Below, in pieces: positions 39,844-45,241 of a DNA stretch of 64,000 nt. Where the stretch lies: NCBI GenBank assembly GCA_020683205.1, contig CP085689.1, positions 124,001-188,000 of the forward strand. Direction: 5' to 3'. How positions within the stretch are numbered: position 1 is the stretch's first letter; each line of letters begins with the position of its first letter. Source of the stretch: Lentisphaerae bacterium WC36 (GTDB lineage Bacteria; Verrucomicrobiota; Lentisphaeria; Victivallales; SZUA-371). A program made the position numbers and the translations under genes. The notes below the pieces were generated by a model. It worked only from the letters and a program-made list of their open reading frames with translations. It searched no databases and was not told the origin of the DNA.

Positions 39844-40335
39844 TTATTTATTTTCATGAGAATACAATTCATTGCAAATTTCACATAAACTTAATTCAGT
39901 TAGAGGTTTACTGTGTTTTAAAATATCATCTTTAGCTTTATTCAAGCCATACATATCACAATAACGTACTGAGCAACATATTTGAGGACGATATCTTATA
40001 ATTAGAATAACTATTTCTGGACAGTTGCTTAGAGCACTATACACAATTGTTGGAATAAGGGTATTGGCTTCGCGATCTGAATAAATATAATCTTCAAATT
40101 GTTCACTTTGTAGTAGCATCTCTACATTTTTAACATCATTATTTTTAATAAATGTTTTTATCAAATTTGATTTATAGCGATCTTGATCATTTAAAAGCTC
40201 CTCATGTATTGATTGTGTAGTTTTCATAGAATGAATATGAGCTTGATTATAAAAGAAAATTCCCGTTAAAACCATTGCTAAAATTACCGAAATGGCGATT
40301 AAAGTTATTATAATTGTCATAATTTTTTGATTCAT
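39844..40335 (-). CDS. single-pass membrane protein, possibly ankyrin-like
   Basis: A 163-residue protein with an N-terminal membrane segment (IMTIIITLIAISVILAMVLTG) and a soluble part containing LIKTFIKNNDVKNVEMLLQS and SALSNCPEIVILIIRYRP, which have the rhythm of degenerate ankyrin repeats. The C-terminus is Cys-rich (ICCSVRYC, LCEIC). The family is not certain. It is transcribed toward the flgL terminator and away from the sugar operon. Confidence 0.6.
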   Translation of the reverse strand: MNQKIMTIIITLIAISVILAMVLTGIFFYNQAHIHSMKTTQSIHEELLNDQDRYKSNLIKTFIKNNDVKNVEMLLQSEQFEDYIYSDREANTLIPTIVYSALSNCPEIVILIIRYRPQICCSVRYCDMYGLNKAKDDILKHSKPLTELSLCEICNELYSHENK

Positions 40336-40498: not shown

Positions 40499-40512
40499 CA
40501 ATGGAGATGAAA

Positions 40513-41715
40513 ATGTTTGCATTTAATTATTATAATCCTGTAAGAACAGAATTTGGTTTAGGAACTTTTAAAACATTAGGTGAAAAAGCTGCACAATTAG
40601 GGAAAAAGGCTTTATTAGTTAATTATGAAAATCATATAGTTTTAGAAAATGTTTTAAATGAAGCTAAAGAGCTGCTGAATGCACAAAGTGTTGAAGCCGT
40701 AGAGTTTTATCAATTCAGAGAAAATCCATCAATTGAAACTGTAGCTGTTGGTGTAGAATTAGCAAAAAAAGAAAATTGTGATATGATTATTGCTATTGGT
40801 GGTGGTTCTGTAATGGATGGGGCAAAGGCAATTGCTGCGGGAGTATTTTATGATGGTAATGATTTATGGGATATGGTTTTTCATCGTCACGATGGTAGTG
40901 GTTCTGAAATTAATCCTCCAGAAAAGGCATTACCTATTATTGCAGTACCTACAGTTCCTGCTACAGGTAGTGAAATGAACATGTGTTCAGTTGTTACAAA
41001 TGAAACTAAAAAAGAAAAATCATATATTTGGGCAGAATGCTTGTTTCCACAATTTGCAATTTTAGATCCAGAGCTGAGTTATACATTGCCTGCATCAGTT
41101 TCGGCGTGTTCAGCTGCTGATGCAATTTCACATGCATTAGAAATCTACATTAATAGTGTTGATGGAACTCCACTGCAAAATTATTGGCAGGAAGGTACAA
41201 TGCGTACAATTATTGAAAATATTCCAGCAGCAATTGCAAACCCTACTGATCCTGAAGCTCGTGGGAATTTAACATGGGCGGCGGCGTGTGCTATTAATGG
41301 CTGGGCAAACCCAGGCGATGGTTGGACTCCAATGCACCAGGTAGGTCATGTTTTAAGTAGTCGTTTTGGTGTTAATCATGGAACGAGTTTAACTGTGATT
41401 ATGCCACATTGGATGCGCTATAACAGTGAGCGCCGTCCAAGCGTTTATGAGCGTTTTGCACTTCGTGTAATGAACGTTGAAGAAGGAAATAAAACTTCAA
41501 AAGAAATTATTAATGAAGGTATTGATAAATTTGAAGCCTTTTTAAAAAATATTGGAGTAGCAACTATTTTGAGCGAAATCAATATCACTGAAAATGACTT
41601 AGACAATATAGTTAATGATGTAGAAAAAGTATCATTTAATGCCGATGGTGTGCTAGGTTGTAATCCTGTTATGACTAAAGCTGATATTTTAAATGTCTTA
41701 AAAATGGCTCTTTAG
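40513..41715 (+). CDS. iron-containing alcohol dehydrogenase
   Basis: About 400 residues of the group III (FucO/YqhD/BdhA) family, which reduces aldehydes to alcohols with NAD(P)H. The nucleotide site is IAIGGGSVMDGAKAIA. Metal ligands appear in SAADAISHALE (Asp, His) and in TPMHQVGHVLSSRFGVNHG (two His). I choose the third ATG (MFAFNYYNP) because GGAG at 40503-40506 lies six bases before it. It leads a four-gene operon with a DeoC-like aldolase, an FGGY kinase and a membrane protein, so it probably removes the aldehyde released by the aldolase. Confidence 0.9.
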   Translation: MFAFNYYNPVRTEFGLGTFKTLGEKAAQLGKKALLVNYENHIVLENVLNEAKELLNAQSVEAVEFYQFRENPSIETVAVGVELAKKENCDMIIAIGGGSVMDGAKAIAAGVFYDGNDLWDMVFHRHDGSGSEINPPEKALPIIAVPTVPATGSEMNMCSVVTNETKKEKSYIWAECLFPQFAILDPELSYTLPASVSACSAADAISHALEIYINSVDGTPLQNYWQEGTMRTIIENIPAAIANPTDPEARGNLTWAAACAINGWANPGDGWTPMHQVGHVLSSRFGVNHGTSLTVIMPHWMRYNSERRPSVYERFALRVMNVEEGNKTSKEIINEGIDKFEAFLKNIGVATILSEINITENDLDNIVNDVEKVSFNADGVLGCNPVMTKADILNVLKMAL

Positions 41716-41740
41716 AATTGTTTAGACAGGAGAGTTTATT

Positions 41741-42436
41741 ATGAGTAATGATTATATTGCAAAAATGATTGATTTAAGTTGTGTGCAAGCAAATAGCAGT
41801 TATGAAGAAATGCAAGAAGCTATTGCTTTAGCTGATAAATATAATGTGGCGGCAGTTTTTGTACTGCCTGCACATCTAGAATATGCACAAAAGTATGCAA
41901 AAGAGAATAGCTACAATGCAACTTTTGCTGCAACTGCTGGATTTCCAAGTGGTAGTACAACAACTGCTTCAAAAATAGTCGAAGCACAAAGACAAATAGC
42001 TTCAGGATGCAGAGAAGTCGATATGGTTAATAATATTACATGGTTGAAAGCTAATGAATTAGAAAAATACCGAAATGACATCCAAATGGTTAAAGATTCA
42101 ATTGGAGATATTCCATTGAAAGTTATTTTAGAGTGTCATTATTTGACAAATGAACAAATTGCTACAGCGTGTGAAATTTGTGCTCAAGTTGGTGTAGCAT
42201 TTGTAAAGACAGGAACAGGGTGGGCTGCGACGGGTGCAACGTTAGAAAATGTTACATTAATGAAAAAGGTAGTAGGTGATCGTTGTGAAGTTAAAGCTGC
42301 AGGTGGAGTTCGTGATATCGAAACTGTGATTGCAATGATAGAGCGTGGTGTGACACGTTTTGGTATTGGCGTTAGAACTGCAAAAGCAATTTTAGGTGAA
42401 GATTTAAATGAAGATTTAACGCAGTCAAATTATTAA
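41741..42436 (+). CDS. deoC: DeoC-type class I aldolase (deoxyribose-phosphate aldolase)
   Basis: 231 residues, the DeoC length. The Schiff-base Lys is K156 in AFVKTGTGW; D94 (EVDMVNN) and K185 (VKAAGGVRD) complete the catalytic set. DeoC cleaves 2-deoxyribose-5-phosphate to acetaldehyde and glyceraldehyde-3-phosphate. Here the usual KTSTGF reads KTGTGWAATGAT, so the pocket may be tuned to another sugar phosphate. GGAG precedes the start, 25 bases after the dehydrogenase. The pairing with an FGGY kinase instead of phosphopentomutase suggests uptake and phosphorylation of a free sugar. Confidence 0.86.
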   Translation: MSNDYIAKMIDLSCVQANSSYEEMQEAIALADKYNVAAVFVLPAHLEYAQKYAKENSYNATFAATAGFPSGSTTTASKIVEAQRQIASGCREVDMVNNITWLKANELEKYRNDIQMVKDSIGDIPLKVILECHYLTNEQIATACEICAQVGVAFVKTGTGWAATGATLENVTLMKKVVGDRCEVKAAGGVRDIETVIAMIERGVTRFGIGVRTAKAILGEDLNEDLTQSNY

Positions 42437-42503
42437 AAGTATTAAAATTGTAATTATTGAGCATTGATTATTGAGTAAAATTCTAAATTTTGAGGTATTA
42501 AAG

Positions 42504-44024
42504 ATGAGTCATGTTATTGCATATGATTTTGGAACAGGGGGAATAAAGGCGTCAATTTATGATGTTTCAGGTAGTTGTTTGGCATCGCATTTTGCGACAT
42601 ATGAAACATATTATCCCGCAACTGGGTTTCACGAACAAAGTCCTGAAATGTGGTGGTTAGCAACAGTTGAAGCAACCAAAGCGTTATTAACGGAATGGAG
42701 TGGTAATAAGAATTCTATTAAGGCAATTGGTATTTCAGGACATTCTTTAGCAGTGGTGCCAGTTGGTAAAGACGGTCAATTATTGCGTGAATATGGTATA
42801 ATTTGGAGTGATTCACGTCCAACAACTCAAGTTGATGAATTTTTTGCAAAAACTGATGCTGAAAATTGGTACATGAAAACGGGTAATGGCTTCCCTCCGC
42901 AATTATACAGTGTTTTCAAAATTATGTGGCTGCGTGATAATGAAAAAGATGTATTCAGTAAAATTTATAAGGTTTTGGGTTCAAAAGATTATATCAATTA
43001 TCGCATGACTAATGTTATGGCAACTGATTATTCATATGCATCTGGCAGTGGGGTATGGGACTTAAAAAAATGGTGTTATGATGAAGAGTTAATTAATGCC
43101 GCATCATTGGATAAAAATATTTTTCCTGAGGCGTTTAGTTCACATCATGTGATTGGAAACTTGACAGTTGAAGCTGCTGAACAATTATCATTAACAACTG
43201 AAGTTAAAGTTGTTGCTGGAGGTGTTGATAATAGTTGTATGGCATTAGGTGCACGCGCTTTTCGCGATGGCGACGTTTACAATTCGATGGGGTCAAGCAG
43301 TTGGATTGCCGTAACAGATAAAAAACCATTATTAAATTTAGATTCAAAACCATATGTTTTCGCTCATGTTGTACCTGAAAAATTTACTTCAGCGATTGGT
43401 GTTTTTGCAACAGGATCGGCTTTAAGATGGGTTAAAGAATTGTTATTCAATTATTATAATGAAGAATGTATCGATAATCAAAATCCATTTGCGGCAATGG
43501 TTAATTCTGCAGAAAAAGTAGTGCCAGGTGCAAATGGAGTCTATTTTTTACCAACTTTAGCAGGAGGTTCATCCTTAGATCATTGTCCAGAAGTGCGCGG
43601 TAGTTTTGCCAACTTAGACCTTAAAAATGGTTTTGCTGATATATGTCGTGCAACATTAGAGGGTATTGCGATGGCTCAAGCAAATGCACTAAAAACATTA
43701 GAAGAGTTAACAACCCTTAAAAATGAAATTTTAGCTGTTGGCGGTGGAGCTCGAGATGATTTTTTCATGGAAATTTTTGCAACTTTATACCAAAAAGATA
43801 TTGTGCGAACTCAAGTTGGTCAGCAAGCGGCGGCATTAGGAGCAGCCGCAGTGGCATTGGTTGGTATTGGTGAATGGGAAACATATGATAAAATTGCAGA
43901 AATTCATAATGAAGTAGCCCGTCAATGTAAAAATGAAAATTTAAGAGAATTTTATCATGAGCATTTAGAAAGATTTAATAAATTAAATAAAAAATTAAGC
44001 GATTGGGCAGTGGAGGTGAATTAA
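42504..44024 (+). CDS. FGGY-family carbohydrate kinase
   Basis: About 506 residues, xylulokinase-like. The N-terminal phosphate loop is AYDFGTGGIKASIYD. Further motifs are ISGHSLAVVPV, IIWSDSRP, GSKDYINYRMT, AGGVDNSCMALGA and, in the C-terminal ATPase half, LAVGGGARDDFFMEI. The start is ATG 42504 (MSHVIAYDF) with GAGG upstream; a longer in-frame form from 42471 has no ribosome site. It phosphorylates a ketose or polyol, and the partner aldolase suggests a deoxy sugar. It resembles the LsrK/LsrF pairing in AI-2 processing, but no Lsr transporter is present. Confidence 0.9.
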   Translation: MSHVIAYDFGTGGIKASIYDVSGSCLASHFATYETYYPATGFHEQSPEMWWLATVEATKALLTEWSGNKNSIKAIGISGHSLAVVPVGKDGQLLREYGIIWSDSRPTTQVDEFFAKTDAENWYMKTGNGFPPQLYSVFKIMWLRDNEKDVFSKIYKVLGSKDYINYRMTNVMATDYSYASGSGVWDLKKWCYDEELINAASLDKNIFPEAFSSHHVIGNLTVEAAEQLSLTTEVKVVAGGVDNSCMALGARAFRDGDVYNSMGSSSWIAVTDKKPLLNLDSKPYVFAHVVPEKFTSAIGVFATGSALRWVKELLFNYYNEECIDNQNPFAAMVNSAEKVVPGANGVYFLPTLAGGSSLDHCPEVRGSFANLDLKNGFADICRATLEGIAMAQANALKTLEELTTLKNEILAVGGGARDDFFMEIFATLYQKDIVRTQVGQQAAALGAAAVALVGIGEWETYDKIAEIHNEVARQCKNENLREFYHEHLERFNKLNKKLSDWAVEVN

Positions 44025-44025
44025 G

Positions 44026-45171
44026 ATGTGGACAACTGACATTAACACGATGGTTATTTGGATTGTGCTCGGATTTCTAGGAGGAATGTTTGGAGCAACA
44101 ATAGGTGGACTTTTAGCATTTGTTTTTTGTGGTATTGGGGCATTAATTTCTTCAGCATTGATGTTGGCAGGGCTAACTGATACAGCTAATTTTGTTGATG
44201 CGTGGATTACTTGGGGACCATTTATTGGACCACAAACATCATTTGTTGGTGGTTGTTGGGCTGCGGCATATGCAAAACATAGAGCTGGTTTTCAAAATGG
44301 ACGTGATATTTGTCAACCACTAGTAACACTACAACGTCCTGATGTATTATTAATCGGTGGAATTGGTGGTGTTGTTGGTGCTATTTGTACTTGGCTGGCA
44401 TGGTTGATTCCAAATTTACCAGTTGTTGGCAGCGAATCAACAGTTGCAACAACTAACAGCGTTGCGTTAGGAGTAATGGTCGCATCAATTATTGGTCGTT
44501 TAGTGGTTGGAAAGTCAGGCATTTTTGGCAAAGTTCCTGATAATGTCAATCGTTTTGATGGTGATGAAAATAACTGCTGGATTCCATGGCAACATTCAAG
44601 TTTAAGCATCATTATTTTAGCAACGATGGTGGGAGCTACGAGTGCAATTTTGACCTATTTAAACTCAAATATGCATTTAATGCTATTTGGAGTTATGACT
44701 GTATTATTTGCATTTATGATTTTAGGGCAGGGAGTTATCGCAGGGCACCATTATGCAATTACAGCCTATTTTGCTGTGGCGGCTACAGGCAATGTTGCAT
44801 GGGGTATTGCGTTTGCCTTAATCGCTGGATTTGCATGTGACTTTTTTGCATTTTTGTTTACAGCTCATGGAGATTCACACATTGACCCGCCAACTTGTGC
44901 GATTGCATTTTGCGGGACATTACAGCCGTTATTAATTTGTTTTGGTTTAATGCCATATACACCAATGAATGGAGCAAACACTGTTGAAAATTTATTTAAC
45001 ATAAAAAATATGTTATTTGCGAATAATTCAACATCAGGGGTAATTGCGCTATTAATGATTTTGGTTTTATTGCCATTAATTACTAAATTATTACGCAATA
45101 ATAAAACATTTTTGGTGGGTAATAGTTTATTCGCTACAGCAACTGTCACAGTTGATAATGACGAAACTTAG
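44026..45171 (+). CDS. polytopic membrane protein, putative transporter
   Basis: 381 residues with about eight to ten hydrophobic helices, many Gly/Ala-rich (IWIVLGFLGGMFGATIGGLL, LLIGGIGGVVGAICTWLAW). Polar loops carry conserved-looking motifs: WGPFIGPQTSFVGGCWAA, GQGVIAGHHYAITAYFAVAA and THGDSHIDPPTCAIAF (read FTAHGDSHIDPP), in which His/Asp could bind substrate or ions. I recognise no transporter family. It starts two bases after the kinase stop behind GGAGGTG, the last gene of the operon, so import of the operon's substrate is the natural guess. Confidence 0.7.
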   Translation: MWTTDINTMVIWIVLGFLGGMFGATIGGLLAFVFCGIGALISSALMLAGLTDTANFVDAWITWGPFIGPQTSFVGGCWAAAYAKHRAGFQNGRDICQPLVTLQRPDVLLIGGIGGVVGAICTWLAWLIPNLPVVGSESTVATTNSVALGVMVASIIGRLVVGKSGIFGKVPDNVNRFDGDENNCWIPWQHSSLSIIILATMVGATSAILTYLNSNMHLMLFGVMTVLFAFMILGQGVIAGHHYAITAYFAVAATGNVAWGIAFALIAGFACDFFAFLFTAHGDSHIDPPTCAIAFCGTLQPLLICFGLMPYTPMNGANTVENLFNIKNMLFANNSTSGVIALLMILVLLPLITKLLRNNKTFLVGNSLFATATVTVDNDET

Positions 45172-45207: not shown

Positions 45208-45241
45208 ATACCGTTAAGTTTTCTTAGCGGTATTCTTTTTT
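45208..45241 (+). terminator. terminator of the aldolase operon
   Basis: An 11-bp stem (ATACCGTTAAG with CTTAGCGGTAT, one G-U) and TTTT loop, followed by TCTTTTTTT. Confidence 0.83.

Follow-up and report, generated by a model that had tools for sequence, protein, structure and literature searches.

A compact four-gene operon of Lentisphaerae bacterium WC36 combines an FGGY kinase and a divergent DeoC-type aldolase with an iron-containing alcohol dehydrogenase and a GrpO-family membrane protein

The 64,000-nucleotide stretch of Lentisphaerae bacterium WC36 DNA analysed here (the window) harbours an operon of four genes coding for an iron-containing alcohol dehydrogenase (Fe-ADH), a DeoC-type aldolase, an FGGY kinase and a membrane protein of the GrpO family, which is an uncommon, new combination of known families. 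The operon is real: its recurrence is far beyond chance, since the identical four-gene order is found in Marinifilum and the Fe-ADH, DeoC and kinase genes stand together in five further genomes. With moderate confidence, it is read as a compact, probably fermentative sugar operon for uptake, phosphorylation, aldol cleavage and aldehyde reduction, with a 2-deoxypentose as the leading candidate substrate. It is not a xylulose, ribokinase-type deoxyribose, microcompartment (SPU) or propanediol operon.

All four open reading frames reported in the first-pass annotation are present in the order given there (Table 1). They are co-directional, are separated by gaps of 25, 67 and 1 bp, and each is preceded by a plausible ribosome-binding site. 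In the case of the Fe-ADH gene, the ATG at 40513, with GGAG 7 nt upstream, is favoured over an in-frame ATG at 40501; the kinase start was placed at the ATG at 42504 behind GAGGT, an in-frame TTG being present also at 42471. The cluster had been described as lying between one promoter and one terminator. A terminator-like hairpin does begin 37 bp past the last stop codon, and the argument for it is its position, as the number of hairpins in the region is not above that in shuffled sequences. The promoter did not stand up, as 37 promoter-like matches were seen in the operon region versus 37.0 expected from shuffled sequence, and no specific one can be claimed. On the minus strand, an ORF of 163 aa with an N-terminal hydrophobic segment (39844-40335) stands between the operon and the flagellar genes.

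Table 1. Features of the operon region (positions within the window)
Feature	Position	Strand	Remarks
Fe-ADH gene	40513..41715	+	iron-containing alcohol dehydrogenase, aldehyde reductase type
DeoC-family class I aldolase gene, KTGTGW subfamily	41741..42436	+	
FGGY carbohydrate kinase gene, DeoC-linked clade	42504..44024	+	
GrpO-family membrane protein gene, putative channel/permease for small neutral polyol or sugar	44026..45171	+	
Terminator-like hairpin, then T-run	45208..45233	+	11 pairs, 4 GC, TCTTTTTTTA tail

The search for the same gene order elsewhere, proposed earlier as a check, led to Marinifilum of the Bacteroidota (L062/L120), where Fe-ADH, DeoC, kinase and membrane protein follow one another as in the operon, with identities of 51%, 55%, 51% and 37%, respectively. 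The triad without the membrane protein is arranged as ADH-DeoC-FGGY in G828, G268 and G355 and as DeoC-FGGY-ADH in G012 and G141. The membrane protein joins the triad only in WC36 and Marinifilum, the contig of G828 ending before that position, and most relatives of the kinase/aldolase pair are without it. An Fe-ADH gene accompanies the pair in seven genomes, WC36 counted, and SDR dehydrogenases are found instead in others. Among 15 related kinases examined, which include two close ones left out of the tree described below (L162, L167), 13 adjoin a DeoC gene with the KTGTGW loop; these pairs reside in WC36, in eight other genomes of the host phylum (G828, G012, G291, G251, G268, G355, G141, G128) and, beyond it, in Marinifilum, in the alphaproteobacteria Sinorhizobium and Shinella and in one Bacillota genome. 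Nevertheless, the pair is uncommon: genomes with kinase matches (E < 1e-70 or 1e-80, the genome searched from being included) numbered 1 of 395 in the Bacteroidota, 10 of 387 in the phylum and 3 of 148 among the closest relatives. In G012 the triad is followed by a gene for a 676-aa glycyl radical enzyme (L119, 11410-13437). This enzyme is of the diol dehydratase/choline lyase type, although the first ~200 positions of its family profile are hardly matched, and no activating enzyme is among the listed ORFs adjoining it. Another DeoC neighbourhood with radical-enzyme genes is that of E. coli K-12 (L136, 516-2066), where the deoC operon adjoins yjjI (DUF3029) and yjjW, the latter bearing the annotation of a putative glycyl-radical enzyme activase.

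The kinase contains both FGGY domains (PF00370, FGGY_N, 9.5e-52; PF02782, FGGY_C, 7.9e-25). Kinases of this family usually act on ketoses or polyols, not on aldoses. Whether the protein groups with the true xylulokinases had been named as a point to check, and it does not. Its scores fall below the xylulokinase cut-offs (319.7 vs 380.25 for TIGR01312 and 202.9 vs 912 for PRK15027), and a tree of 51 sequences places it in a 13-member clade with a support of 100/100, outside of which lie XylB (on a long branch), GlpK, LsrK, FucK and AraB of E. coli. The identity of a xylulokinase was rejected on the TIGR01312 score and the position of XylB.

The aldolase reaches 199.2 bits against TIGR00126 (equivalog cut-off 117.3) and is the sole match to this profile in its genome. 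The catalytic residues of E. coli DeoC are all kept, Asp102, the Schiff-base Lys167 and the proton-relay Lys201 corresponding to Asp94, Lys156 and Lys185. The altered Schiff-base loop noted in the first-pass annotation, KTGTGW for the classical KTSTGF (Ser to Gly), is indeed present and marks a real subfamily of aldolases. Meanwhile the C-terminus reads RFGIGV versus RFGASS in E. coli DeoC, a correspondence made by motif, as the automatic alignment of the C-terminus was poor. The Ser238-Ser239 replaced here binds the C5 phosphate in the E. coli enzyme; hence, the phosphate may sit differently in the operon aldolase. Because the E. coli-type phosphate site, that is, the serine of KTSTG together with the C-terminal Ser238-Ser239, is absent, the protein is filed on its sequence as a divergent DeoC subfamily and not as a proven deoxyribose-phosphate aldolase. 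The different substrate suggested earlier is a possibility, 2-deoxypentose, deoxy-ketose and polyol not being separated by any of the tests made.

The Fe-ADH comprises the domains PF00465 (3e-44) and PF25137 (1.3e-33), and the metal-ligand motifs AADAISHA and MHQVGH..NHG can be read off its sequence, i.e. the family domain occurs together with the metal-binding His/Asp residues. Its nearest solved relatives are 1vlj, an NADH-dependent butanol dehydrogenase, and 7w9x, an Fe-ADH. Its closest kin are aldehyde and butanol dehydrogenases dependent on NADH or NADPH, a kinship typical of reduction.

Neither the membrane protein nor its relatives nor a 39-member profile yielded anything usable in searches of Pfam, NCBIfam and the PDB sequences, and a single-sequence scan of the genome contigs with the membrane protein found no relative; 371 confirmed relatives (loci) were obtained in one scan of the genome contigs with an alignment built from distant plasmid matches. 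The weak matches it gave among the genomes of the phylum (L002-L013, E ~1e-3) seemed spurious, and the three that were checked encode unrelated ORFs. The membrane protein shares 33% amino acid sequence identity over 306 aa with GrpO of E. coli (E 2e-38), and it has the motifs GPx..FAGG, HH and HIDPP, which are conserved in the 39-member family alignment. By homology it is a member of the GrpO permease family and a putative transporter. The family is thus a known one, and the description of the protein as an unfamiliar transporter was not borne out, though its branch is a different one: in the tree it lies outside the GrpO clade and groups with members from Marinifilum, Rikenellaceae, Cyclobacteriaceae and Aminicenantes (99/97). 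E. coli grpO is annotated as "propanediol utilization system permease", and the function of GrpO, as used here, is that of the annotation only; the gene lies within the grp operon (grpA to grpS), which also encodes microcompartment shell proteins and a glycyl radical diol dehydratase. At the DNA level, a close relative from Atlantibacter is 94% identical to grpO, a gene carried by 536 of the 5426 complete genomes of E. coli.

Among the 87 family loci examined, 61 adjoin microcompartment (35), glycyl radical enzyme (24) or FGGY kinase (24) genes, and 11 adjoin RuvAB. Annotated neighbourhoods include GlpK with GlpD, glycerol dehydrogenase with GlpP, and alcohol with aldehyde dehydrogenases. On an Enterococcus gilvus plasmid (L019, 7995-8480) a shortened GrpO-family gene, which overlaps a glucosaminidase gene, is preceded by genes for glycerol dehydrogenase, a GlpP-type antiterminator, an FGGY kinase and an FAD oxidoreductase. 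In Bryobacterales and related Acidobacteriota (L041, L045, L046, L048, L049, L069, L081, L085, L087, L099) the gene is located beside ruvA, ruvB and mostly a CtpA-type protease, with sugar genes absent nearby. In metagenome-assembled genomes of Cyclobacteriaceae and Aminicenantes (L026, 3507-8870; L053, 3-4522) it is found directly 3' of a large polyketide-synthase-like gene, an unexpected setting for a diol permease.

The high-confidence predicted models of the membrane protein (pLDDT 87.3, pTM 0.86) and of a shorter relative from the family (pLDDT 97.5, pTM 0.94) both consist of two halves alike in helix pattern; short half-helices are present. When structures were compared, the first 13 rows for the one model and the first 9 for the other were all urea transporters, at a modest Z of 7.3-8.2, although a value near 8 can come from a common helical arrangement, and ammonium/Rh channels are among the next-best neighbours of both; scattered or partial rows for TRIC, GPCR, PepT and MFS proteins were set aside. 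A weak internal repeat was detected in register, with GPH..TDxVA aligned to THH..IDPPA (P 0.0017; score 24.9 vs a best of 19.8 in 30 column shuffles). However, no sequence similarity to urea transporters or Amt-Rh channels was found, and Foldseek against the PDB returned no significant match for either model (none with E < 1e-3). Since this search was non-significant and such Z values are attainable by common helix arrangements, the urea-transporter-like channel fold suggested by the models is to be regarded as a lead and not as a result.

Several known systems resemble the operon in part. In the DeoK and DeoC route of deoxyribose use, a phosphorylation comes first and DeoC then releases glyceraldehyde-3-phosphate and an aldehyde (PMC6365646), and a kinase step would precede DeoC cleavage in the operon as well. 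Unlike that route, and as the first-pass annotation had rightly pointed out, the operon has an FGGY and not a ribokinase-type (PfkB) kinase; its DeoC loops are divergent, its permease is of the GrpO family and its Fe-ADH is dedicated. The fuc operon of E. coli shares the order of the chemistry, with an FGGY kinase (FucK), an aldolase (FucA), an Fe-ADH (FucO) and a transporter (FucP), but the aldolase of the WC36 operon is of the DeoC type, an isomerase is absent and the transporter is unrelated to FucP. With the glycyl-radical propanediol operon (grp) of E. coli the homologous membrane protein and its motifs are held in common, whereas no glycyl radical diol dehydratase was found in the WC36 genome, only a canonical PFL, no BMC genes occur in the operon and the membrane protein sits on a separate branch. 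In SPU metabolosomes, too, a DeoC-type aldolase feeds an aldehyde-handling enzyme (PMC4207490); the operon, in contrast, is without acylating aldehyde dehydrogenase, RpiB, PduL and shell proteins, and the aldehyde would be reduced instead. Neither BMC shell proteins nor an acylating aldehyde dehydrogenase turned up in the operon or in the ORFs that flank it. A second, FGGY-based way of feeding a DeoC-type aldolase would be represented by the operon, and its conservation extends over at least four phyla. The substrate of the enzyme pair would extend the known catabolic repertoire by a sugar or polyol. The membrane protein, in turn, represents a large family without Pfam, NCBIfam or PDB entry, linked to diol, glycerol and sugar metabolism and with a channel-like predicted fold.

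The observed basis of the proposed pathway is gene content, conservation of order, family memberships, intact catalytic residues and GrpO homology, from which we infer the order of reactions, the direction of transport and the substrate. The GrpO-family channel would admit a small neutral polyhydroxy compound, the terminal hydroxyl of which would be phosphorylated by the FGGY kinase; the KTGTGW aldolase would then cleave the phosphorylated compound, giving glyceraldehyde-3-phosphate for glycolysis and a short aldehyde, to be reduced by the Fe-ADH to an alcohol with re-oxidation of NAD(P)H. This logic of import, phosphorylation, aldol cleavage and reduction had been proposed from the start, and the identities of the parts and their conserved order support it. 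A 2-deoxypentose leads as candidate because of the homology to DeoC, and would yield acetaldehyde and, finally, ethanol. Weighing against this reading are the replaced C-terminal serines of the aldolase, the usual preference of FGGY kinases for ketoses or polyols, the absence of the membrane protein from most relatives of the kinase/aldolase pair, and the tie of GrpO proper, on its separate branch, to propanediol.

Since the aldolase loops are altered, release of glycolaldehyde or a ketone is conceivable; the GrpO-family protein could then serve for export of a diol and not for import of sugar. According to this possible, yet rather doubtful reading, the substrate is not a 2-deoxy sugar but a pentose, ketose or 1-deoxyketose, and a pocket widened by the Ser-to-Gly change in KTGTGW releases glycolaldehyde or a hydroxyketone for reduction by the Fe-ADH to ethylene glycol or 1,2-propanediol. 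It would suit the common use of ketoses by FGGY kinases, the loop and C-terminal phosphate site unlike those of classical DeoC, the link of GrpO-family proteins to diols, and the S. meliloti relatives, where genes for a threitol-dehydrogenase-type SDR and glycerol dehydrogenase lie alongside; however, the location of some family members next to GlpK/GlpD or propanediol dehydratase points to import, and DeoC enzymes favour acetaldehyde as the small partner. It is unlikely that the aldolase serves mainly in deoxynucleoside salvage, acting on deoxyribose-5-phosphate from DNA, with the kinase adding free deoxyribose. The score above the equivalog cut-off and the single TIGR00126 match in WC36 (G000), G012 and G828 would fit such a role, but Marinifilum carries a second DeoC, so that the operon copy there is not a housekeeping one, the KTGTGW subfamily is systematically paired with the kinase, and the operon is without nucleoside phosphorylase or phosphopentomutase. 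The oxidative direction, in which the dehydrogenase converts an imported polyol to a sugar before phosphorylation and cleavage, seems very unlikely in view of the reductive kinship of the Fe-ADH, even though the permease family is polyol-linked and SDR dehydrogenases occur near the pair in alphaproteobacterial and Bacillota relatives.

The fermentative reading can be extended, speculatively and with little probability, to an undescribed route with the kinase and the KTGTGW aldolase at its core. In its fullest form, that of G012 with its glycyl radical enzyme, a radical dehydratase would make the 2-deoxypentose from a polyol, e.g. a pentitol; phosphorylation and cleavage would then give glyceraldehyde-3-phosphate and acetaldehyde/ethanol, amounting to a redox-balanced pentitol fermentation. 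In WC36 the deoxy-sugar itself would enter, via a GrpO-family channel of urea-transporter-like fold. The literature searched contained no description of FGGY and DeoC pathways, of GrpO or of glycyl radical pentitol dehydratases. Production of the deoxy-sugar by a glycyl radical dehydratase of WC36 itself was rejected, as the genome has one PFL-like gene only, which scores as canonical PFL; a search with PF02286 (B12 diol dehydratase) gave no match, the controls being likewise silent.

In Bacillota and S. meliloti (L169, L170, L100), an FGGY kinase and DeoC belong to a larger shared cluster that also holds a ribose-type ABC transporter and other sugar genes, in L170 and L100 those for a 2-hydroxyacid dehydrogenase and shikimate-dehydrogenase-like proteins; this cluster is possibly one related pathway.
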